Positions 2,414-52,559 of a stretch of 64,000 nt of DNA are shown here, one piece after another. The position numbers and the translations under genes were made by a program. Numbering within the stretch: the first letter of the stretch is position 1; each line of letters begins with the position of its first letter. The DNA is taken from assembly GCF_000215085.1 (NCBI RefSeq), contig NC_015589.1, positions 434,001 through 498,000 of the forward strand, in the 5' to 3' direction. The notes below the pieces were generated by a model that saw only the letters and a list, made by a program, of their open reading frames with translations, was not told the origin of the DNA and made no database searches. Source of the DNA: Desulforamulus ruminis DSM 2154. Lineage in GTDB: Bacteria; Bacillota; Desulfotomaculia; Desulfotomaculales; Desulfotomaculaceae.

Positions 2414-3907
2414 TTGAATAAATGGTTTAGAAACTGGCAGGCAGCGGTTGCCGTACTGGTGACCATAGCCGTACTGGGGATCTTCATGGCAGGTTCACCT
2501 TCTCGTGGAATCGCTGATTCTGTTAAAGGCGGTGAGTCCTATACTGGAAAAACTCCAAAGTATATCTTTATGTTTGTGGGCGACGGTATGAGTTATCCTC
2601 AGGTTAGTAGTGCAGAGATGTTTCTGGGGCAGCAAGCCATGCCAGGAAAAATTACTCCTAAGCAGCTCAATTTTACCCGGTTTCCTACCCATGGAGCCCT
2701 GATGACCCAAGATTCCTCATCATTTATTCCGGATTCCGCTTCCACAGCGACCTCCCTGGCTTCGGGTCACAAGACTCTTTCCGGTGTAATTAACATGGAT
2801 GAAACAAAAACAAAAGAATACCGTCCTATTACCGAAGATTTAAAAGCAAAAGGCTATAAGATTGGCATCATCACCAGTGTTCCCATCACTCATGCAACCC
2901 CCGCCGCCTTTTACGCCAAGGTTGCCAGCAGGAATGATGCCTATGATATTGGACAGCAGTTGGCAGCCAGTGGATTCGATTTCTTTGGAGGCGGTTCATT
3001 CGATCAGCCCACAGGACCCGAAAAAGATCAGCCGCATATTTTTGAGGTTGTTAAGAACGCCGGTTATAAAGTCGTAAATAACAAGGACGAGATATTGGCT
3101 TTAAACAGCGAGTCCGGCAAAGTAGTGGCCATCAATCCGGAGTTAGATGGAACGGCCATGGACTATGAGATTGACCGCCAAGCGGGGGAACTCTCCCTGG
3201 CCGATTTTGTTCAGAAAGGCATCGATGTATTAGATAATCCCAAGGGATTTTTCATGATGGTCGAAAGTGGGAAAATCGACTGGGCCGGCCATGCTAATGA
3301 CGCAGCCGCCTCCATCCATGATACCATTGCTTTTGGTGATGCAATCCAGAAAGCTTTGGAATTCTATAAGAAACACCCTAATGAAACACTGATTCTGGTT
3401 ACTGCCGACCATGAGTGCGGTGGAATGACCATCGGGTTTGCGAATACCGAGTATGATACCTTTTTTAATAAGCTTCAGCCTGTAACCATGTCCTTTGTGG
3501 ATTTTGGCAAGATTTTTGACCAATACAGGAAAACCGTAACCCGCGATACCGCAAAACTAGAGGATTTACAGGACGAAATTAAAGCCGGATATGGTCTAAC
3601 CATGGCAGATCTGAGTGACTACGAAATTGGCTTGCTGCGGAAAGCTCTGGATTGGTCCATGATTCCAACAGAAGAGAGAAAATACACCGATCAGGAAAAA
3701 ATTCTTTATGGCACTTATGAGCCCTTTACTGTAACCCTCTGCCATATTATAAACAACAAGGCCGGACTCAGCTATACCAGTTATTCCCATACCGGTGTTC
3801 CCGTACCGGTTTATGCCCTGGGTCTGGGTGACGAGTTGTTTGATGGTTTTTATGATAACACAGAAATTTACTACAAGCTGGCTGCCGTTACCAACATTAA
3901 AAACTGA
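2414..3907 (+). CDS. phoA: Alkaline phosphatase, secreted
   Basis: 497-residue PhoA-family metallophosphatase that hydrolyses phosphate monoesters outside the membrane. I chose the TTG at 2414 because GGAGGGG ends six bases upstream; the TTG at 2399 would overlap that site. Residues about 10-27 form a hydrophobic signal or anchor segment. VGDGMS (Asp57) is the first metal-ligand motif, PDSAS holds the nucleophile Ser108, TADHECGGM (Asp332-His333) and SYSHTG (about His459) supply later zinc ligands. It lies behind a PhoP-box-like array, so induction by phosphate limitation is likely. A GC-rich hairpin (about 3952-3981) separates it from the downstream yibE/F frames. No truncation seen. Confidence 0.93.
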   Translation: MNKWFRNWQAAVAVLVTIAVLGIFMAGSPSRGIADSVKGGESYTGKTPKYIFMFVGDGMSYPQVSSAEMFLGQQAMPGKITPKQLNFTRFPTHGALMTQDSSSFIPDSASTATSLASGHKTLSGVINMDETKTKEYRPITEDLKAKGYKIGIITSVPITHATPAAFYAKVASRNDAYDIGQQLAASGFDFFGGGSFDQPTGPEKDQPHIFEVVKNAGYKVVNNKDEILALNSESGKVVAINPELDGTAMDYEIDRQAGELSLADFVQKGIDVLDNPKGFFMMVESGKIDWAGHANDAAASIHDTIAFGDAIQKALEFYKKHPNETLILVTADHECGGMTIGFANTEYDTFFNKLQPVTMSFVDFGKIFDQYRKTVTRDTAKLEDLQDEIKAGYGLTMADLSDYEIGLLRKALDWSMIPTEERKYTDQEKILYGTYEPFTVTLCHIINNKAGLSYTSYSHTGVPVPVYALGLGDELFDGFYDNTEIYYKLAAVTNIKN

Positions 3908-14060: not shown

Positions 14061-14094
14061 AACATTTAATTAAATAAAAATTCCTCATCGATTC

Positions 14095-14275
14095 GGTGGG
14101 GTAGAGGTTGCGGCTTGTATCAGTAGCCTGTGGGAGATGTGGAGACATCGCAGAAAACAGGGGAAAGGATAAGCTGCCGAAATTGCCGTGTTTCTCCGGA
14201 CCGGCAGTTGGGTCTGTTTCCGAACAGGGGCAGAACTGTCACGGTTACTTGCCATTGACCGTGGAGCGCTATCTT
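14095..14275 (+). promoter_or_regulatory. Lysine riboswitch (L box)
   Basis: The order of conserved blocks fits the L box: AGAGGTTGCGG, then CAGTAGCC, GGGAAAGGATAAGCTGCCGAA, GGTCTGTTTCCGAACAGGGG, and GTCACGG near the 3' side. The closing helix pairs GGTAG (about 14100) with CTATC (about 14270). It is followed by mutually exclusive antiterminator and terminator hairpins, so lysine should switch transcription off. The genes behind it form an amino-acid ABC importer. Confidence 0.88.
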
Positions 14276-14297
14276 CAGTGAAGATATATTGGGTGAG

Positions 14298-43768: not shown

Positions 43769-44608
43769 TTAACAAGATTGATCCAGTTTCAGTATTCGGG
43801 CGGCATTTTTGTACATGACCTTCTGGCGAACTTCATCCGTAAAGGGGAGCTTTTGATAGTTCTTCAAGGCGTCTTTAAAATGGACAAAGGGGTGGGCGCT
43901 GGCAAAGAGCAATTTGTCGCTGATGATGGTGTTGGCCCCCTGTACATACGCTTCGGACATCGGGAAGAATTCATATTCCGAGATATCCAGATACACATTG
44001 CTGTTTCTTTGAGCTACGGTAATCATTTCATTGACCCAAGGATAGGCGCCGTGGCTTACCACCATGGTCAGTTCCGGGAAATCCCGGGCTACAAAATCGA
44101 TGTACCTGGGCGCAACGTGGTCAATAACCGCATTGGGAACCAGAGTGGCAGGTCCCGTAGTAATTACAATGGGAATATCCAATTCGCAGCATTTGGCATA
44201 GATAGGGTAGTATTTGGCGTCATTAACATAAATTTGAGCCAGGTAAGGGTCGATGGATGCCCCTTTTAATCCCAGTTGGTTAACAGAGCGGTTCAGCTCG
44301 TGGATGGCTGCCATGCCTTTATGAGGATCAAGACCGGCAAAACCAATAAATTTATCAGGGAATTGATTGACCATTTTGGCCACTCCATCGTTGCTGCCTT
44401 TCCACTGGTAGGTGGTTTCGGCGTCTCTTCCCAGAATAACGGCCTTATCTACACCATTTTGATTGAGTTCCTCAACAATTTCCGGAAGATCCTGGGTTTT
44501 GGTATTGGAGAAGCCAATCATATCGCATAAGGTTTTAAACATTTTACTTTCCCCGATGGCCATAACATCGGGCGTGTTGGGCCTAAACCGAAAATCAATG
44601 GTTTTCAT
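43769..44608 (-). CDS. Amidohydrolase-fold protein lacking canonical metal ligands
   Basis: 279 residues of the Amidohydro_2 (ACMSD-like) family. ATG 44608 is seven bases after AGGAG. The first motif, normally D-x-H-x-H, reads IDFRFRP, so both His are Arg. A later position normally SDYPF reads SAHPF. SHGAYPWVNE keeps one His. The metal site is therefore altered or lost. The protein may be a non-metal decarboxylase, a binding protein or a different lyase. It is divergently arranged from the GntR gene and shares a sequence block with the MHS promoter region, so it is likely part of the sulfonate island. Confidence 0.8.
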   Translation of the reverse strand: MKTIDFRFRPNTPDVMAIGESKMFKTLCDMIGFSNTKTQDLPEIVEELNQNGVDKAVILGRDAETTYQWKGSNDGVAKMVNQFPDKFIGFAGLDPHKGMAAIHELNRSVNQLGLKGASIDPYLAQIYVNDAKYYPIYAKCCELDIPIVITTGPATLVPNAVIDHVAPRYIDFVARDFPELTMVVSHGAYPWVNEMITVAQRNSNVYLDISEYEFFPMSEAYVQGANTIISDKLLFASAHPFVHFKDALKNYQKLPFTDEVRQKVMYKNAARILKLDQSC

Positions 44609-44649
44609 GATCATTCTCCTTTGTTGTATAAATTGAAAACATGTGGAAG

Positions 44650-44675
44650 TGATCACAGTAGCATAAAGGGATAAC
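44650..44675 (-). promoter_or_regulatory. Repeat box TGATCACAGTAGC near the amidohydrolase start
   Basis: TGATCACAGTAGC then RTAAA and GGGAYAAC; the same box is at 45895-45922 before the MHS transporter. Probably a regulatory site of the island. Confidence 0.4.
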
Positions 44676-44721
44676 AAATTGTCTATTCTAAAGACAGGAG
44701 TGATTTACAAAGGAGACATAG

Positions 44722-44735
44722 TGATGTTATGATGT
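44722..44735 (+). promoter_or_regulatory. Candidate GntR operator 1
   Basis: TGATGTTATGATGT, shared with 45740-45753 (TGATGTTATAACGT). Lies between the amidohydrolase and GntR genes. Confidence 0.4.
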
Positions 44736-44857
44736 CGCTATGACTTACTATTTATCATATACCGGACAAAAAAATTAATCAACCGGTATTTTTAAAAAAG
44801 GATAACCATGGATAAACGTCGAAATTCAAAGAAAATTTGGCGGGAGGCTGTTTCTTA

Positions 44858-45580
44858 GTGCTTGATAATAATAACCCGGTACCTTTGCATATACAGTTAA
44901 AAGAAATTTTGTTAAAAGAAATCCAGCAAGGGGTTTATAAAGAGAAAATTCCCAGTGAGAGAGAGTTGATCGATAAATACTCCGTAAGTCGTACCACTGT
45001 ACGGGAGGCCGTAACCGCTTTGGTTTATGAAGGAGTATTGCAGAAGATTCACGGTAAAGGCACCTTTATTAATCAGTCCCCTTCAATCAATGAATGGTTG
45101 GGCTATCTAAGCAGCTTTACTGAAACCATTGAAAGAATGGGGATGAAATCCGGCGCACAACTGCTGGAGCAGGGAAGAGGTTCCGACGTAGAAATAGCGG
45201 AGACCCTTGGTGTGGAAGAATATTATTATATAAAAAGACTGCGGTTTGCCGACGACCAGCCGGTAGCCATAGAAAGGCACTACTATCCTTTAGAAGTGGG
45301 GCTTCTTTTGGAAAAATATGATCTAAATAAGGTTACCTTATATGAAAAGTTAGAAGCCGAAGGGATTAATTTACACCATGCGGAACAGAGAATAATGGCG
45401 GAGAGCCCCAGTACAGAGGATGCTAAATTACTGGGAATTTCTGATCATACATGTGTTTTAGTTGCACAACGTCTAATTACCAATCGACTGGGAAATCCCA
45501 TCGAGTACTATCACAGTATTTATCGGGCAGACAAATATGCCTTTAGCTTAAAAATGTCCAGAGGAATGCGAGTGGGTTAA
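44858..45580 (+). CDS. GntR/HutC-family regulator with UTRA domain
   Basis: 240 residues. GTG 44858 is ten bases after GGGAGG; TTG 44837 lies before that site. Winged-helix HTH at residues about 10-75 (IPSERELIDKYSVSRTTVREA), then a UTRA ligand-binding domain. The gene lies in the centre of the island, between the amidohydrolase and the transporter. Likely regulates both, with a sulfonate or acid as effector. The effector is not known. Confidence 0.85.
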   Translation: MLDNNNPVPLHIQLKEILLKEIQQGVYKEKIPSERELIDKYSVSRTTVREAVTALVYEGVLQKIHGKGTFINQSPSINEWLGYLSSFTETIERMGMKSGAQLLEQGRGSDVEIAETLGVEEYYYIKRLRFADDQPVAIERHYYPLEVGLLLEKYDLNKVTLYEKLEAEGINLHHAEQRIMAESPSTEDAKLLGISDHTCVLVAQRLITNRLGNPIEYYHSIYRADKYAFSLKMSRGMRVG

Positions 45581-45612
45581 ATCCGCTTGTAATAAAAATA
45601 ATTTTCCAATTC

Positions 45613-45653
45613 ACCCTGTTTGTCCTTATAAAAAGGGCGTTCAGGGTTTTTTT
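45613..45653 (+). terminator. Terminator after the GntR gene
   Basis: ACCCTG (45613-45618) and CAGGGT (45642-45647) with TTTTTTT; an inner CC/GG pairing supports it. Confidence 0.6.
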
Positions 45654-45686
45654 GTCGGCTAAATTACAAAAAATCATAAAAAAGTA

Positions 45687-45716
45687 TTGCAAAAATATAA
45701 AAAATCAGTGTATATT
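45687..45716 (+). promoter_or_regulatory. Promoter of the MHS transporter
   Basis: TTGCAA (45687-45692), 18-base spacer, TATATT (45711-45716). Start predicted near 45723. Confidence 0.55.
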
Positions 45717-45722
45717 CTTAGT

Positions 45723-45765
45723 AACTGGTAGTTATGTGATGATGTTATAACGTAATCACGTCATG
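45723..45765 (+). promoter_or_regulatory. Candidate operator cluster at the MHS start site
   Basis: AACTGGTA (45723) plus TGATGTTATAACGT (45740) and TAATCACGTCATG (45753-45765). The AACTGGTA block and TAATNACGTCATG block recur at the islA start site (47478 and 47484). Confidence 0.5.
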
Positions 45766-45894
45766 GCGAACCCAAAGTTTGTTTGTGTTAGTGTTCACAG
45801 GTTCAAGCAAATCTAAAATTTAGAAAGGGGGCAAATTAGTCAAGTAAGGATATTTGGGTTAATCAGGGGAAGTAAAACATTTTTTGTGAAATGC

Positions 45895-45922
45895 TGATCA
45901 CAGTAGCGTAAAAAGGGACAAC
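45895..45922 (+). promoter_or_regulatory. Repeat box TGATCACAGTAGC before MHS transporter
   Basis: Second copy of the box at 44650-44675, with two extra A bases before GGGACAAC. Confidence 0.4.
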
Positions 45923-46075
45923 TTATGGATCACAAAGAAATAGAACATGGCAACCTTGGCAGGAGTGATGGATAAACAAAGAACTGCAAGAAAAACTTCG
46001 ACTCCAATAAAGGCATTATTTAATCGTTCTTACGGATGTAAGATTTGGAATACGACATAATTTAGGAGGATAAGC

Positions 46076-47386
46076 ATGAAAGATAAAAAAATGATGCGTC
46101 GTATTGTTAGCGCCAGTTTAATCGGAGCCACTATCGAATGGTATGACTTTTTCCTCTACGGGGTTGTAGCCGGCATTGTCTTTAACAAATTGTATTTTCC
46201 CTCCGATGATCCTGTGGTTTCCACATTGCTTGCCTATGCTACTTTTGCCGTCGGTTTTATTACACGTCCACTGGGAGGCATTATCTTTGGACACTTTGGA
46301 GATAAGATCGGCCGCAAAAGTGTATTGGTTGCCACGCTGATGATCATGGGTGTTTCCACCGTATTGATCGGTTTAATTCCCACTTATGCACAAATTGGTA
46401 TCTGGGCGCCGGTAATTCTGCTGCTCCTGCGGATTTTCCAGGGTATTGGTCTGGGCGGCGAATGGGGAGGCGCGGTGCTGATGACCTTTGAATCCGCTCC
46501 TGAATCGGAGCGTGGTTTTTACGCCAGCCTGCCCCAGATCGGATTGTCGCTGGGTCTGACACTGGCCTCCGGCGTTGTGGGGTTGTTGTCCTTTACGCTT
46601 TCGGATGCTCAGTTCATGGCCTGGGGATGGCGTGTTGCCTTTATCTTAAGCATTGTGCTGGTGGCGGTAGGAATGTATATCCGCCTGCATGTTATGGAGA
46701 GCCCGGAATTCCAGAAGGTAAAAAGCGAAAAAGCCGAAGTAAAGATTCCTTTTATGGAGTTATGGCGCGGTGGGTACGCAGCCAATATATTGGCCGGAAT
46801 GGGTGCCCGATATATTGACGGGGTGTTCTTCAATGTATTTGCGGTTTTCTCCATCAGTTATCTAACCTCCAGCCTGAACATCGACCGTACCGATGCGTTA
46901 ATGGGCGTTATGCTGGCCGCTATCGTCATGTGCTTTACCATTCCTTATTTTGGACGTCTTTCAGACCGTGTGGGTAGAGCCAAACTTTATTTGTACGGCA
47001 GCTTGATCACGGGTATTTCAGCCTTCCCGGCCTTTTGGCTGATGGCTCAAAGCGGCGGAAATATCACCTTGATTTGGCTCTCCATTATTATTCCCTTCGG
47101 AATCTTCTATGCTATGGTCTATGCCCCGGAAGCTGCGTTATTCTCAGATTTGTTTGACGCAAGAGTGCGCTATACGGGGATCTCCTTTGTCTATCAGTTC
47201 TCAGGAATTTTTGCCAGTGGTTTAACACCCATCATTGCCACAAGCTTATTGGCTCTCAACAACGGAAACGCCACTCTGCTTTGCGCCTATGTGGTCTTTG
47301 CCGGTGTCGTCAGCGCCTACTCGGCTGCCTGGATTCGCCGCAACCAAGGTCGTCAAAAACTGGAAAAGACCGTGAATATCTCATAG
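46076..47386 (+). CDS. MHS-family MFS transporter (candidate isethionate or organic-acid importer)
   Basis: 436 residues, twelve membrane segments. The metabolite:H+ symporter signature is visible (ATIEWYDFFLYG near residue 18, GHFGDKIGRKS between helices 2-3, and RIFQGIGLGGEWGGAVLM). ATG 46076 after TAGGAGGATA. The gene sits immediately before islA and has the same candidate operators. MHS proteins import organic acids and betaines with protons, so uptake of the lyase substrate is a sensible inference. Confidence 0.85.
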   Translation: MKDKKMMRRIVSASLIGATIEWYDFFLYGVVAGIVFNKLYFPSDDPVVSTLLAYATFAVGFITRPLGGIIFGHFGDKIGRKSVLVATLMIMGVSTVLIGLIPTYAQIGIWAPVILLLLRIFQGIGLGGEWGGAVLMTFESAPESERGFYASLPQIGLSLGLTLASGVVGLLSFTLSDAQFMAWGWRVAFILSIVLVAVGMYIRLHVMESPEFQKVKSEKAEVKIPFMELWRGGYAANILAGMGARYIDGVFFNVFAVFSISYLTSSLNIDRTDALMGVMLAAIVMCFTIPYFGRLSDRVGRAKLYLYGSLITGISAFPAFWLMAQSGGNITLIWLSIIIPFGIFYAMVYAPEAALFSDLFDARVRYTGISFVYQFSGIFASGLTPIIATSLLALNNGNATLLCAYVVFAGVVSAYSAAWIRRNQGRQKLEKTVNIS

Positions 47387-47442
47387 TGACCTTTTGTAAT
47401 GTCCCAGTATTTATGAAGACTTTTAAAATTGTTGTTAACTGG

Positions 47443-47471
47443 TTGACAAAACAAAAATTAGGGTATAGGAT
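47443..47471 (+). promoter_or_regulatory. Promoter of islA
   Basis: TTGACA (47443-47448), 17-base spacer, TAGGAT (47466-47471). Start predicted near 47478. Confidence 0.6.
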
Positions 47472-47477
47472 AATGTC

Positions 47478-47503
47478 AACTGGTAATGACGTCATGATTA
47501 GAT
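47478..47503 (+). promoter_or_regulatory. Candidate operator at the islA start site
   Basis: AACTGGTA (47478-47485) and TAATGACGTCATG (47484-47496), both shared with the MHS promoter. Contains the perfect palindrome ATGACGTCAT. Confidence 0.5.
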
Positions 47504-47578
47504 TAAATCCATGATGCCTGGGCTGAAATGTGATTGAACTATCATGTGCAAACAAAAGGCTACTAAGGAGGAATGATC

Positions 47579-50065
47579 ATGAGTTCTTGTTGTAACGTAT
47601 TGTCACCTCATGAACAAAGAATTCAGGAAGAAATGCAAGGAAAAGATGATTTTAAAAAAGGCAGGGAAAGGATTTATAAAATCCTGGAAAGCTTCAATAC
47701 CCAGCGTCCCATCATCGATGTTGAAAGAGCAAAATATTTCACCGAATCCATGAAGGAAACCGAAGGGGAACTGCTGGTTTTAAGATGGTCCAAGGCTTTG
47801 CTGCATATTGCTAAAAATATGACCGTTTATATTGATGACCATAACCTGCTGGTGGGCAGAGGCGGTCAACCCGGCCGTTACGGCATGCTTTTTCCGGAGC
47901 TGGACGGAGACTTTTTGGACGTAGCCATTGAACAATTGCCCAGCCGGGTTGAGTCTCCTTTTAACATCAGCCAGGCAGACGCAGATATTGTTATCAACGA
48001 AATTGCTCCCTACTGGAAGGGAAAAACCTTTCATGAGGCACTGGCCCAAGCTCTGCCCGAAGATACTTTAAGGGTAACCTACGACCCCAAGGATGTTTTA
48101 AAATCCAGATTTATTGTCAACGAAACCGCTTCTTTCCGTTCCTCTATTCAATGGGTGCATGACTATGAGCGAGTATTAAAAAGAGGCTTCAAAGGCATTA
48201 AAGAAGAGGCTCAGCAAAAGCTCGCGGCTCTGGACCCCAACAGTCCGGTTAACAATAGGGAAAGGGCGCCTTATCTCCAGGCAGTGATCAATGTATGTGA
48301 TGCTATTGTTCTTTGGGCTCACAGACATGCGGAACTGGCTGCGGAATTAGCTGCTAAGGAAACGGATGCCGTCCGCAAACAGGAGCTGCTGGAAATTTCC
48401 GAGATTTGCCGGTGGGTGCCTGAAAATCCCGCCCGCAACTTCCGTGAAGCGGTTCAGTCCCAATGGTTTACCCAAATGTTCTCCAGAATTGAACAAAAGA
48501 CCGGCACCATTATTTCCAACGGACGCATGGATCAGTATTTCTACCCTTACTATAAAAAGGATCTGGAAGAAGGCCGCATCACCGAAGCAAAGGCCATGGA
48601 ATTATTGGAATGCATGTGGGTTGCCATGGCTCAGTTCATCGACCTGTATGTGTCTCCCACCGGCGGCGCTTTCAATGAAGGCTATGCCCACTGGGAAGCA
48701 GTTACCATTGGCGGACAGACTCCGGATGGCCGGGATGCCACCAATGAATTAACTTACTTGTTTTTAAAATCTAAACAGGAATTTCCCTTAAACTATCCGG
48801 ACCTGGCTGCCCGTATCCATGCCCGTTCGCCGGAGCGGTATATGCACGAGGTTGCCCTAACCATTAAAGAGGGTTCCGGTTTCCCCAAACTAATCAACGA
48901 TGAAGAAGTTATCCCCTTGCTGCTCAGCAAAGGTGCAACCTTTGAAGAAGCTTATGATTATGCGGTTTCCGGTTGCTCCGAGGCCAGAATGCCCAACCGG
49001 GACACCTTTACCAGCGGTTGCGCTTATATCAACTTTGCTTCCGCAGTGGAAATGGTTCTTTATAATGGCAGAACCCGGCTTACCGGAGACGAGCTGGTTA
49101 CTTTTGAAACCGGCGATCCGGGGGAATTCAAGACCTGGGGAGAGTTCTGGAATGCTTATACGGCACAGACAACCAACTTTTTAAAACACGCTTTTATCCA
49201 GCAGCATGCCATTATCAACCTGCGTCCCAGGCACTTTGCCACTCCCCTGGGTTCCTCGCTGCATGACCTGTGCATGGAACACTGCCTGGACCTGCATACT
49301 CCGGTGATTCCCGGCGGGATTGACATGGGTTACTTCGAATTAATTGGTTATGGTACGGTGGTAGATTCTCTGGCTGCCGTTAAAAAGCTGGTTTTTGAGG
49401 ACAAGAAATTGACCATGGCTGAATTAATTGAAGCCTTAAAGTGTAATTTTGAAGGCAAGGAAGCCGTCCGGCAAATGCTTCTCAATGCTCCAAAATACGG
49501 CAACAATGATGACTATGCCGATACCATTGCTCGGGAAGTGGACCGTCAGGCCCTTGAATTTACCAAAAAGTATTCCAAGGAACTGGGCGTACACCTGGAT
49601 TTAAGATTGGTTCCCTTTACTTCCCACGTTCCCTTTGGTAAAGTTGTAGGTGCTACGCCAAACGGCAGAAAGGCCTACACCCCGCTGGCAGATGGATCCT
49701 CCGCATCCCACGGTTGCGATGTAAACGGACCGACAGCCGTATTGTTATCCAACTTTAATTCTAAGAACTACAATTATCGGGAGCGCGCCTCCAGGCTGCT
49801 GAACATTAAGTTTACTCCTTCCTGCGTAGCCGGAGAAGAGGGCACGCAAAAGCTGGTATCCTTTATTAGAACCTGGTGCGATTTGAAACTCTGGCATCTG
49901 CAGTTTAACATCATCAACAGAGAGACCCTGCTCAAAGCCAAAAAAGATCCCGACAAATACCGTGGCTTGATTGTCAGGGTAGCCGGATACAGTGCTTATT
50001 TCTGCGACCTGTCTCCGGACCTGCAGGACGATATCATTGCCAGAACCGAGCACAACACCATTTAA
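47579..50065 (+). CDS. islA: Glycyl radical enzyme, isethionate sulfite-lyase type
   Basis: 828 residues; ATG 47579 is eight bases after AGGAGG (ATG 47573 is too close). Glycyl radical loop RVAGYSAYF with Gly803. Active-site [12 protein letters not shown] gives thiyl Cys466 and Glu468. FRSSIQW gives Arg187 and Gln191, and LRLVPFTSH gives Arg676 and Phe680. These six positions match, with a constant two-residue offset, the residues I recall for Bilophila isethionate sulfite-lyase (189, 193, 468, 470, 678, 682, Gly805). The enzyme should cleave isethionate to acetaldehyde and sulfite. The recalled family sequence has Thr where Ser467 stands. A substrate other than isethionate is possible. It is followed by its activase after a strong hairpin. 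Confidence 0.82.
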
Positions 50066-50084
50066 CTTTTGAATCCGGATTTAA

Positions 50085-50116
50085 CTGTAAGTCCTGCTTT
50101 TCAGCAGGACTTACAG
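50085..50116 (+). repeat. 13-bp hairpin between islA and islB
   Basis: CTGTAAGTCCTGC (50085-50097) and GCAGGACTTACAG (50104-50116) pair perfectly around TTTTCA. No T-run after it. Likely sets a high lyase-to-activase ratio by protecting or partly terminating the transcript. Confidence 0.75.
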
Positions 50117-50140
50117 CCGTATTCAGTCAGGAGGTATTTT

Positions 50141-51082
50141 ATGGCTGGAGCCAATCACCAGGATAAAAATAAATACGGGATTGTTTTTAATATTCAACGC
50201 TACTCGGTGCACGATGGGCCCGGCATTCGAACCATTGTATTTCTCAAGGGCTGTCCCCTGCACTGCCGGTGGTGTGCCAATCCGGAGTCCCAATCTCTGC
50301 AGCCGGAATTAGCCTATAACGATCATAAATGTATCGGGATTCAGGAGTGCGGCTACTGTTTGAAGGCCTGTACCACAGGCGCCATCAGGGAAAAGGACGA
50401 TAAAATTGTCATAGACCGGGAAGGCTGCAACCACTGTGGTCAATGTGCGGAAATCTGCCCTTCCAGGGCTTTAAATATGTACGGTAAAACCATGAGCGTG
50501 GATGAAGTTTTAAATTTAGTGGAGCAGGACAGCAGCTTTTACTCCAGATCCGGAGGCGGTATCACCCTAAGCGGCGGGGAACCCCTGGTGCAGTCGGAAT
50601 TTGCAGCCGCATTATTAAAGGAAGCTAAAAAAAGGAGAATGAATACCGCCATTGAAACCTGCGGTTATGCTGACTGGGACAGGCTGGAACGAGTTTGCGA
50701 ATATACGGATACGGTGCTGTACGATATAAAATGCATTGATAGGGCGAAACATAAGGAATATACCGGTGTTGACAACGAAATCATTTTAGAAAACTTTAAA
50801 AGGCTATGTGAGCGCTTCCCAGACAAAAGTATTCTGGTAAGGACCCCGGTGATTCCCGGTTTTAATGACTCGGAAGGAGATATCGGCGCCATCGTGGAAT
50901 TTATTAAAGGATATCCCAATGTGAAATACGAACTGCTGGCTTACCATCGTTTAGGAGAACCTAAATATACTTACATTGGGAAAGACTATACTCTAAAGGG
51001 TATGGCGCCAATGCAGGAAGAACGCATGGCTGCCTTAAAACGGCTGGCAAGTGAAAAAATGAAGAAGGAGTCCAATTCATGA
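50141..51082 (+). CDS. islB: Glycyl radical enzyme activase (radical SAM)
   Basis: 313 residues; ATG 50141 after AGGAGG. Radical SAM motif CPLHCRWC near residue 41, then an 8Fe-ferredoxin insertion with CIGIQECGYCLKAC and CNHCGQCAEICP, as in GRE activases with two auxiliary clusters. GGGITLSGGEPLVQ is the SAM-binding GGE motif. Generates Gly803 radical on the islA product. Overlaps the next start by four bases. Confidence 0.9.
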   Translation: MAGANHQDKNKYGIVFNIQRYSVHDGPGIRTIVFLKGCPLHCRWCANPESQSLQPELAYNDHKCIGIQECGYCLKACTTGAIREKDDKIVIDREGCNHCGQCAEICPSRALNMYGKTMSVDEVLNLVEQDSSFYSRSGGGITLSGGEPLVQSEFAAALLKEAKKRRMNTAIETCGYADWDRLERVCEYTDTVLYDIKCIDRAKHKEYTGVDNEIILENFKRLCERFPDKSILVRTPVIPGFNDSEGDIGAIVEFIKGYPNVKYELLAYHRLGEPKYTYIGKDYTLKGMAPMQEERMAALKRLASEKMKKESNS

Positions 51083-51429
51083 AAGATTTAAAGGTGCTAT
51101 TTCATGTATCTGACAATGAAGTCTGGCCCAAAGCACTGCTTAATATTACCAATTTTCTTAAGGATGTAGGCCAGAACGGGGCCGAGGTGGAGGTTGTGGC
51201 CAATGCGGGGGCCGTTATGGCTTACTACCCACCGGAAGAAAAGAAAGAACAATTAGAGCAAATGGCAAAGCTTTCCCATATGGGAGTAAAATTTACGGCC
51301 TGCCGCAATGCTTTAAATGCCCACTCCCTGGATGAAAGTCAAAGGCCCGGTTTTGTTGAAGTTGTACCGGGAGGGATTACCGAGGTCGTGAAGAAACAAA
51401 CAGAGGGCTTTATTTATATTAAGCCCTAA
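51079..51429 (+). CDS. DsrE-like protein
   Basis: 116 residues of the DsrE/DsrF-like superfamily (COG1416 type). Conserved VKFTACRNAL carries Cys76-like residue, followed by LDESQRPGFVEVVPGG. Overlaps islB by four bases (ATGA), so it belongs to the operon. DsrE-like proteins bind or relay sulfur. Here a role in handling sulfite or persulfide released next to the lyase is an inference. Confidence 0.78.
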   Translation: MKDLKVLFHVSDNEVWPKALLNITNFLKDVGQNGAEVEVVANAGAVMAYYPPEEKKEQLEQMAKLSHMGVKFTACRNALNAHSLDESQRPGFVEVVPGGITEVVKKQTEGFIYIKP

Positions 51430-51740
51430 AGCCTAATCCATAAACGCGCCGCCGGGCTGCTGCCAAAGAACCCGGAGTGGTTAGATTGTGCAGACCTTTG
51501 TTTCCAAAATTAAAAAAGAATAGAACGCGGATTTTGCGGATTACTATGGATTCTCACGGATTTTGAATTTTTTAATTAAATCCGCGTAAATCCGTATCAT
51601 CCGTTCAATCCGTGTTCTATTTCTTATAGCCCAGTTGTTCACTGGTGTATCTACCTGTTCTTTGAGCGTTATTCTAAGGCGTTTTCGACAGTCCCCATTG
51701 TATTTCAAGAAAAATTAAATGCATGCTAGTTGGAGGAAAA
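51430..51740. other. Intergenic region with dispersed repeat copy 3
   Basis: Contains the repeat at 51519-51621. No terminator with a T-run was seen before it, so the repeat may serve as one. The rest is non-coding. Confidence 0.5.
51519..51621. repeat. Dispersed palindromic element, copy 3
   Basis: 103 bp, ends AATAGAACGCGG and CCGTGTTCTATT. Left of tauE. Confidence 0.85.
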
Positions 51741-52559
51741 ATGTACGAATGGGTTTGTGCTTCCGCAATTGTTTTTGTTGCTTCTGCCCTGCAGTCTATT
51801 ACAGGATTTGGTTTTGCCATTATGGCCACGCCTTTTCTTTTACTATTTTACAATCCACAGGACTGCATCCAAATGGGTACCATTTTGTCCGTTTTTATTG
51901 CCCTGGTGTTAACACCAAAGATAAAACAGCATATTGATTCTGCGATTCTTAAGAGATTGATTATAGGAAGTTTTTTTGGCGTTCCCCTGGGATTGGTGTT
52001 TTTTGCTTTTGCGGGACTGGAAACCATAAAATTATCCATTGCCGTGGTTATTCTGGCTATAACCCTGTATTCATTTTTTCAGAGCTATCAAGCCAGGGTT
52101 AGACAAAGGGCCGTACAAACGCAAACAGCCGGAAGTAACGGGCTGCAATGTGCAGTAGAAATGGAAGGTTCTCCTGTTCCGGCAGAAAAAGAAAGCAGGC
52201 CCATGCGCAAAGAAGTGCTGGTTGGATTCTTTGCCGGGGTGCTTACCACCGGAGTGAATATGCCGGGGGTTCCCATGGCCCTCTATTTTAATAACAGCTC
52301 CTTTGCAAAGGAAGTGATTCGCAGCACTACCCTTGGTTTTTTTATTGTGGTTTATATTACGGGAATGATAATGCAGTTATTCACGGTGGGCATTAGCCTG
52401 CGGGTGGTTACGATGGCCTTATATTTAATACCGGCCGGAGCCTTGGGTATATTTGTGGGCAACCTGCTGTTTGATAAAATAAACCGGGGCATGTTTCAGA
52501 TCATTACCAATTTCCTGCTTGTATATATAGGCATTTATATTTTAGCAGAATCCTTATAA
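51741..52559 (+). CDS. TauE/SafE-family anion exporter
   Basis: 272 residues, eight membrane segments in two halves. The first repeat contains QSITGFGFAIMATPFL, the second GFFAGVLTTGVNMPGVPMALYF, both characteristic of TauE/SafE. ATG 51741 follows GGAGG with four-base spacing. Flanked by repeat copies 3 and 4. Members export sulfite, sulfonates or sulfoacetate. Sulfite export or removal of excess sulfite after isethionate cleavage would fit the island. Confidence 0.82.
   Translation: MYEWVCASAIVFVASALQSITGFGFAIMATPFLLLFYNPQDCIQMGTILSVFIALVLTPKIKQHIDSAILKRLIIGSFFGVPLGLVFFAFAGLETIKLSIAVVILAITLYSFFQSYQARVRQRAVQTQTAGSNGLQCAVEMEGSPVPAEKESRPMRKEVLVGFFAGVLTTGVNMPGVPMALYFNNSSFAKEVIRSTTLGFFIVVYITGMIMQLFTVGISLRVVTMALYLIPAGALGIFVGNLLFDKINRGMFQIITNFLLVYIGIYILAESL

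Follow-up and report, generated by a model that had tools for sequence, protein, structure and literature searches.

The 64,000-nucleotide stretch of the Desulforamulus ruminis DSM 2154 genome analysed here (contig NC_015589.1, positions 434,001 to 498,000; hereafter the window) very probably contains, in the region 43769-52559, the isethionate-respiration locus of this organism. At its centre lie islA (iseG), encoding a glycyl radical enzyme (GRE) which by pocket and clade is an isethionate sulfite-lyase, and islB (iseH), encoding its activase, followed by a gene for a DsrE-family protein. This succession had been noted in a preliminary description of the DNA and is confirmed as real, far beyond chance. 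The IslA part is already known, including in Firmicutes, and the claim made for the DsrE-like protein is weak. The parts worth following are an amidohydrolase-fold protein encoded in the same region, hereafter the partner, and an RNA hairpin between islA and islB, both of which, together with a GntR regulator, the preliminary description had passed over. D. ruminis DL (formerly Desulfotomaculum) is a sulfate-reducing firmicute from the sheep rumen, and its genome forms one contig of 3,969,014 bases. In both gut and rumen, part of the sulfide stems from respiration of isethionate and taurine. The features of the locus are compiled in Table 1.

The islA reading frame (47573-50065, plus strand) extends over 830 open codons. 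The ATG at 47579, giving 828 residues, has by eye the better-spaced Shine-Dalgarno sequence and agrees with the start in close relatives, which bears out the start proposed earlier. C466, E468, G803, R187, Q191, R676 and F680, listed in the preliminary description, are all present according to an alignment with 92 relatives and comparison with the structures 5YMR, 7KQ3 and 6LON; in the 830-codon numbering used below, which is higher by two, they are C468, E470, G805, R189, Q193, R678 and F682. Pfam recognises the PFL-like domain with 652 bits and the Gly_radical domain with 101 bits. The best PDB matches are 5ymr (1411.8 bits), presumably the D. vulgaris enzyme, 7kq3 ('Isethionate sulfite-lyase', 1296.8 bits) and then 6lon (1230 bits), which we take to be Bilophila HpsG, the sulfo-lyase for 2,3-dihydroxypropane-1-sulfonate (DHPS).

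Besides the residues named above, the window GRE has T312 and W374. It thus carries the radical glycine (G805) and the catalytic cysteine with a glutamate two residues on (C468, E470). R189, Q193 and R678 have been described as the sulfonate-binding residues (PMC8473560), and all three are present. In the 93-row alignment (window plus 92), the IslA-type rows retain R189, Q193, T312, R678 and F682, the seven HpsG-like rows (L041-L046, L123; loci carry L numbers and genomes G numbers) have V682 and A312, 6LON has isoleucine at 682, and rows L048-L050 lack the sulfonate residues altogether. Two loops of 13 and 10 residues are the same in the window GRE and 5YMR; 7KQ3 shows one change in the second loop (SPAGGAFNEG), and 6LON differs. 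Furthermore, the window GRE reads VPFTSH, the IslA pattern, where IslA and HpsG differ. In a quick maximum-likelihood tree of 95 rows, from which a length filter had removed five, the window falls into an 81-row clade with 5YMR and 7KQ3, and 6LON stays outside (Shimodaira-Hasegawa-like approximate likelihood ratio test, SH-aLRT, 90). The relatives came from a scan in which the best 80 among 255 candidates were retained; this sample does not extend to remoter IslA relatives or to most HpsG. With the GRE placed inside the IslA clade and its pocket of the sulfonate type, the IslA identity given in the preliminary description is borne out by clade and pocket together (F682, T312, loops); the tree taken alone gives moderate support.

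Some points weigh against this identity. The fork parting 6LON from IslA is a short branch, its SH-aLRT of 90 comes from a quick method, and 6LON is a long row. NCBIfam would make the GRE a DHPS sulfo-lyase of HpsG type, since the model NF048011 ('(2S)-3-sulfopropanediol dehydratase') scores 1584.9 bits against a cut-off of 1000 and the activase model NF048010 also passes its cut-off (Table 1). R189, Q193 and R678 are common to the window GRE and 6LON, as are the fold and the type of activase. However, F682, T312 and the two loops are as in 5YMR and 7KQ3 and unlike 6LON, which lies outside the window's clade. Moreover, IslA-type proteins from Nitratidesulfovibrio and Desulfovibrio score 1579 and 1547 bits with NF048011, and L049, which is without R189, Q193 and R678, still scores 1094 bits. 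Because these proteins also pass the cut-off, the name is not diagnostic. An HpsG identity would have nothing but this name in its favour, the HpsG pocket and clade being absent, and we rejected it as extremely improbable. The NCBIfam name for these GREs is unreliable, and public names derived from it may be wrong. The GREs of L048, L049 and L050, 51-52% identical to IslA, have N189, N193, K678 and F374 and represent a third pocket type; weakly BASS-like genes adjoin their activase.

Two loci show interrupted islA genes. In G057 (L038:6932-15929) one of two islA copies is split by a transposase-like gene of 413 codons on the other strand, and the second copy is intact. An intein was ruled out here, as the insert encodes a 413-residue transposase-like protein and an identical copy of its gene lies about 7 kb away in L038. 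In G052 (L047, L188), a 72%-complete genome, stops or frameshifts interrupt islA, islB and the amidohydrolase-fold gene, and seemingly other nearby open reading frames too, which may reflect decay or poor sequence.

Isethionate sulfite-lyases of Firmicutes have been published before. Peck 2019 lists Desulfotomaculum strains for IslA, Xing 2019 describes an isethionate cluster in Desulfitobacterium (D. hafniense), and IseG protein was detected in isethionate-grown D. hafniense (PMC9888536); novelty in Firmicutes therefore does not hold. The IslAB/IseGH systems of Bilophila, Desulfovibrio and Desulfitobacterium resemble the window in the GRE pocket, the catalytic residues, the adjacent activase and the Dsr-equipped host. 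The window differs from the published clusters by an MHS symporter gene beside islA where those have TRAP genes, by dsrE and TauE genes downstream, and by the lack of shell genes at the locus.

Sulfite-reductase-family genes form two adjacent pairs in the genome, i.e. two dsrAB copies, at positions agreeing with the genome paper. There they are named Desru_0386-0387 and 3723-3724, sulfite is given among the electron acceptors of D. ruminis and a taurine route via Xsc is described; the word 'isethionate' is absent from the main text of that paper (PMC3569383). Both the dsrAB pairs and the use of sulfite as acceptor support the earlier suggestion that sulfite from IslA feeds dissimilatory reduction. 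In the proposed pathway, isethionate would enter through the MHS symporter, IslB would install the glycyl radical on IslA, and IslA would split isethionate to acetaldehyde and sulfite, a reaction to which residues and clade point here and which is established for homologs (PMC8473560). DsrAB would then reduce the sulfite, with possible export of an overflow by the TauE-family protein, and an acylating dehydrogenase or AdhE, with its gene elsewhere in the genome, would oxidise the acetaldehyde. Two acylating dehydrogenases score over the cut-off, both outside the locus, and a third match (508.8 bits) lies in a 902-codon frame that is AdhE-like by size. The GntR protein probably controls the unit.

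Table 1. Features of the isethionate locus, with positions in the window.
Feature	Position	Strand	Basis
Amidohydrolase-fold (PF04909) partner, 279 aa, HxH replaced by RxR	43769..44608	-	Pfam, alignment, co-occurrence
Palindrome CATAGTGATGTTATGATGTCGCTATG, gntR-amidohydrolase intergenic region, putative operator	44717..44742		Core in L187
GntR/UTRA protein, candidate cluster regulator	44837..45580	+	PF00392 and PF07702
Promoter-like TTGCAA-18-TATATT before MHS gene	45687..45716	+	Sequence pattern
Palindrome GTGATGATGTTATAACGTAATCAC behind the -10 element upstream of the MHS gene, putative GntR operator	45736..45759		Sequence pattern
MHS-family (metabolite:H+ symporter) protein, candidate isethionate importer	46076..47386	+	TIGR00883 414.6 bits, under the 443.45 cut-off
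Promoter-like TTGACA-17-TAGGAT before islA, then ATGACGTCAT (47486-47495)	47443..47471	+	Sequence pattern
islA (iseG), isethionate sulfite-lyase, GRE, 828 aa	47579..50065	+	Pocket and catalytic residues, clade
RNA hairpin in the islA-islB gap, CTGTAAGTCCTGCT-TTTC-AGCAGGACTTACAG	50085..50116	+	Covariation in relatives
islB (iseH), radical SAM activase, 313 aa	50141..51082	+	Radical_SAM and Fer4; NF048010 498.9 vs 430; ribosome-binding site ggaggtatttt
DsrE-family protein, 116 aa, one conserved Cys	51079..51429	+	PF02635 32.2 vs 22.7 bits; 4-nt overlap with islB stop
TauE/SafE-family membrane protein, candidate sulfite exporter, 272 aa	51741..52559	+	PF01925 109 bits

The partner scores 129.8 bits with PF04909 (gathering score 26.4); at NCBIfam no family was found for it at E 0.001, nor for one tailed copy (see below) at E 0.01. 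Amidohydrolases of PF04909 bind their metal by an HxH motif, two further histidines and an aspartate. At the positions filled by HAH, H, H and D in six canonical relatives from the class, the partner reads R6/R8, T149, H185 and A237, so that four of the five ligands are replaced and the metal centre appears to be lost; judged by the sequence alignment, the arginine pair R6/R8 would sit at the former metal site. R6, R8, R60, H95, K96 and D119 are identical in 33 of 33 aligned partner copies, and no copy that extends far enough deviates at H185 (32 of 32) or H238 (31 of 31). In the genome-wide set of copies, the more distant L219 (G152) reads SACPF where the others have SAHPF. An AlphaFold2 model of the window partner has a predicted local distance difference test (pLDDT) score of 93.0. 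The closest solved relative is BB4693 (PDB 3irs, titled 'uncharacterized' TIM barrel), which resembles the partner in sequence (125 bits, 29% identity), fold (template modelling score 0.82) and the RxR motif.

For the neighbourhood survey 96 loci were scanned, of which 93 remained after removal of three duplicate contigs; some contigs end early, so neighbour counts are lower bounds. Within the compared stretch, partner homologs above 150 bits occur in 32 of the 83 other IslA-type loci, spanning Bacillota, Thermodesulfobacteriota and Nitrospirota, and in none of the 10 loci of non-IslA relatives (seven with the sulfonate residues, three without), which adds to the differences from HpsGH. The share is 19 of 38 among IslA-type loci with at least 7 kb available on either side, and in several loci the partner gene follows islB on the same strand. 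Within the class, whole partner copies of at least 70% identity are found in seven genomes, the same seven that hold an intact IslA of at least 80% identity, and in G052 both are broken. The nine class genomes with only a 51-63% IslA relative have no partner match above 29%, and G073 and G095 have lesser partner relatives (45-59%) and no IslA match. Distances of partner and IslA agree closely (Mantel r 0.89, 31 sequences including the window; 0 of 2000 permutations as high), to which the shared ancestry of the host genomes adds. L185:8654-11708 and L186:7601-11417 contain RxR amidohydrolase-fold relatives next to a transporter-like open reading frame (48-57 bits to the window MHS) and no IslA.

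The partner also tends to go with sulfite respiration. Among 50 genomes chosen from IslA loci, many of them incomplete metagenome bins, 22 contain both the partner (at E 1e-50) and DsrA (over cut-off) and 17 neither, whereas four have only the partner (G122, G123, G145, G152) and seven only DsrA (G118, G128, G131, G135, G136, G147, G156; Fisher p=0.00013 with relatedness ignored). Sub-cut-off fragments at contig ends in G123 and G152 may be cut dsr genes; G159 of this set is HpsG-like by its pocket. In Bacillota, L062, L067 and L073 have DsrA and the partner, and L060, L065 and L066 have neither.

PF00936-type shell hits were obtained at 14 distinct IslA loci, 13 of which have the partner within the stretch; in the fourteenth, L087, it lies about 11 kb away and is tailed. 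Of the 11 complete copies near islA in shell loci, ten (L039, L058, L061, L062, L063, L067, L069, L073, L079, L089) carry a C-terminal tail of 36-50 residues with endings such as IIESVIRELAKRG or LVGEIVREVMARM; the tail of the exception, L133, has 38 residues and is unlike the others. Two further copies, L070 and L072, are truncated where the locus ends; the full copies L196 and L200 are tailed. Partner copies from loci without shell hits have no such tail (L095 ends in 20 unrelated residues). Microcompartment targeting peptides typically form a helix after a flexible linker, and in the model of the L062 copy (mean pLDDT 81.8) the tail forms a helix of its own (285-303), set off by a linker of low confidence. 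A helical-moment measure was discarded as tail test because it did not separate real from unrelated tails (L095 0.71), so the tail reading rests on the sequence pattern, the linkage to shell genes and the model. On these grounds the tailed copies look like microcompartment cargo. The window partner has no tail and no shell gene nearby and does not qualify as cargo; the only PF00936 shell genes of the D. ruminis genome surround the CutC gene, at 2.085-2.102 Mb. The Bilophila wadsworthia microcompartment cluster shares islAB with the window and, unlike it, has shell genes; the last entry of its gene table, 00649 ('hypothetical protein, predicted amidohydrolase function'), resembles the partner by that description only (PMC8667426).

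The lyase itself being known, the partner bears on the handling of its two reactive products. We tentatively favour the reading, which has not quite an even chance of being right, that the partner binds an anionic product state of IslA via its invariant arginine pair, e.g. the adduct of acetaldehyde and bisulfite, and releases the two products or passes them on. The more specific form of this idea, in which a metal-free enzyme splits the adduct (1-hydroxyethanesulfonate), inside the microcompartment where there is one, with the arginine pair holding the sulfonate-like anion and with sulfite reaching Dsr and acetaldehyde its dehydrogenase, is unlikely as matters stand. Action of the partner on a product state of this kind, the boldest step in the proposed pathway, would account for its link to sulfite respiration, its location in the lumen and its absence from HpsG-like loci; the product of HpsG is a ketone. 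Several points weigh against such a role. The adduct may dissociate fast enough unaided at neutral pH, and RxR is likewise found in relatives without IslA (3irs, G073, G095). L203, L206 and L211 are tailed and show no shell hit in their islA stretch, to which the search was confined. Finally, 24 of the 50 genomes, seven of them with DsrA, have no partner at E 1e-50, so that the partner is not indispensable to IslA.

Loss of four of the five metal ligands, and the same dispensability, would fit a structural, regulatory or scaffolding pseudo-enzyme instead of a catalyst, which is plausible but on the whole doubtful: the invariant candidate pocket residues R6, R8, R60, H95, K96, D119, H185 and H238 would be more typical of an active site. 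Alternatively, the partner could act on some other small acid, as a metal-free lyase or hydratase that merely co-occurs with isethionate users. PF04909 relatives include decarboxylases and hydratases, and the RxR relatives of G073 and G095 adjoin a transporter-like open reading frame in genomes without IslA. This explanation appears somewhat unlikely in view of the tight co-inheritance with IslA, its place behind islB, in the same orientation, at several loci and the lack of the partner at the non-IslA loci. Whichever role applies, this little-studied conserved protein, which follows IslA, is without metal ligands and is cargo-like in its tailed copies, offers a concrete gene for deletion and assay in connection with the preferred role in product handling.

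The hairpin between islA and islB has 12 predicted pairs. All of them are kept throughout an alignment of 12 sequences, made up of the window and 11 relatives that had been selected for sharing the hairpin, and four pairs are changed on both sides. A dispersed repeat as its source was ruled out, since the 3.97-Mb genome contains the core motif at a single place. A perfect stem of at least 10 pairs (G-U allowed) is found in the 95 bases past the GRE gene in 49 of 92 stretches including the window, its sequence varying by lineage. No T-run follows the hairpin in the window; it may therefore work in mRNA processing or hold the activase below the level of the GRE. The conserved hairpin offers a testable device for setting the ratio of enzyme to activase.

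The islA-islB-dsrE unit proposed earlier is supported as one apparent operon. The additional proposal that the DsrE-like protein is a sulfur relay of the pathway found no such support. In its favour are the apparent co-transcription with islB in the window and in 5 of 93 other loci (L035, L036, L037, L040 and the disrupted L047, from one genus and one other family, the latter with the order islA-islB-dsrE-amidohydrolase in G042), and a cysteine of a CRNAL-type motif conserved in 30 of 30 aligned DsrE-family sequences. Because this cysteine is family-wide, however, it says nothing special about this operon. Most of the IslA loci compared are without dsrE, and DsrE/TusD-type relays carry persulfide sulfur, not sulfite. 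The DsrE family occurs in 43 of 113 class genomes (an IslA/HpsG-type match in 17), and five unlinked copies (G055, G057, G018, G025, G067) have no islA-cluster protein adjacent in a comparison with the proteins of the window and the islA loci. Like other members of PF02635, which has three matches in the D. ruminis genome, the window protein exceeds the Pfam cut-off and has the conserved cysteine; it differs by lying behind a GRE activase, and a scan of 10 neighbouring proteins gave no second DsrE-family domain and no sulfur-relay domain (dsrF/dsrH/tusA partners). The open-licence literature contained one paper with both terms, the accessible text of which makes no connection between DsrE and IslA. 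The link to islAB is real but narrow, and DsrE would best be described as an optional, lineage-specific accessory; a true relay of IslA-derived sulfur to DsrAB is possible but quite improbable. In the gap between dsrE and the TauE gene (51527-51627), a short repeated AATCCG(C/T)G-type sequence in inverted arrangement was noticed by eye.

The preliminary description had also seen a possible complete utilisation cluster in the surrounding alcohol dehydrogenase (ADH), MHS, TauE and BASS genes. This holds in part: MHS, TauE and, in addition, GntR are partly conserved neighbours of islAB, whereas the closest relatives, L035-L038, have neither ADH nor BASS in the vicinity of islAB. MHS genes stand beside islA in six other loci (L036, L037, L060, L062, L066 and, on the other strand, L131), and the TauE gene is found downstream in L035-L038. 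The ADH reaches 158.7 bits against the 700-bit cut-off for the sulfoacetaldehyde reductase SarD, and ADH matches elsewhere at most 162 bits. The divergent pair of gntR and the amidohydrolase gene also exists in G057 (L187), which has the palindrome core GATGTTATGATGTC in common with the window. The promoter-like sites are weak evidence, because the counts of promoter-like and terminator-like patterns in the region are not above those of shuffled sequences.

Elsewhere in the D. ruminis genome, a further GRE (L003, G000:C1:2157792-2159735) stays below every NCBIfam equivalog cut-off, its best match being CutC (761 vs 1050 bits), and the other three GREs read as HypD, CutC and PFL. The sole match at the Rfam gathering threshold, far from islAB, is a lysine riboswitch at 14094-14279 (RF00168, 120 bits).

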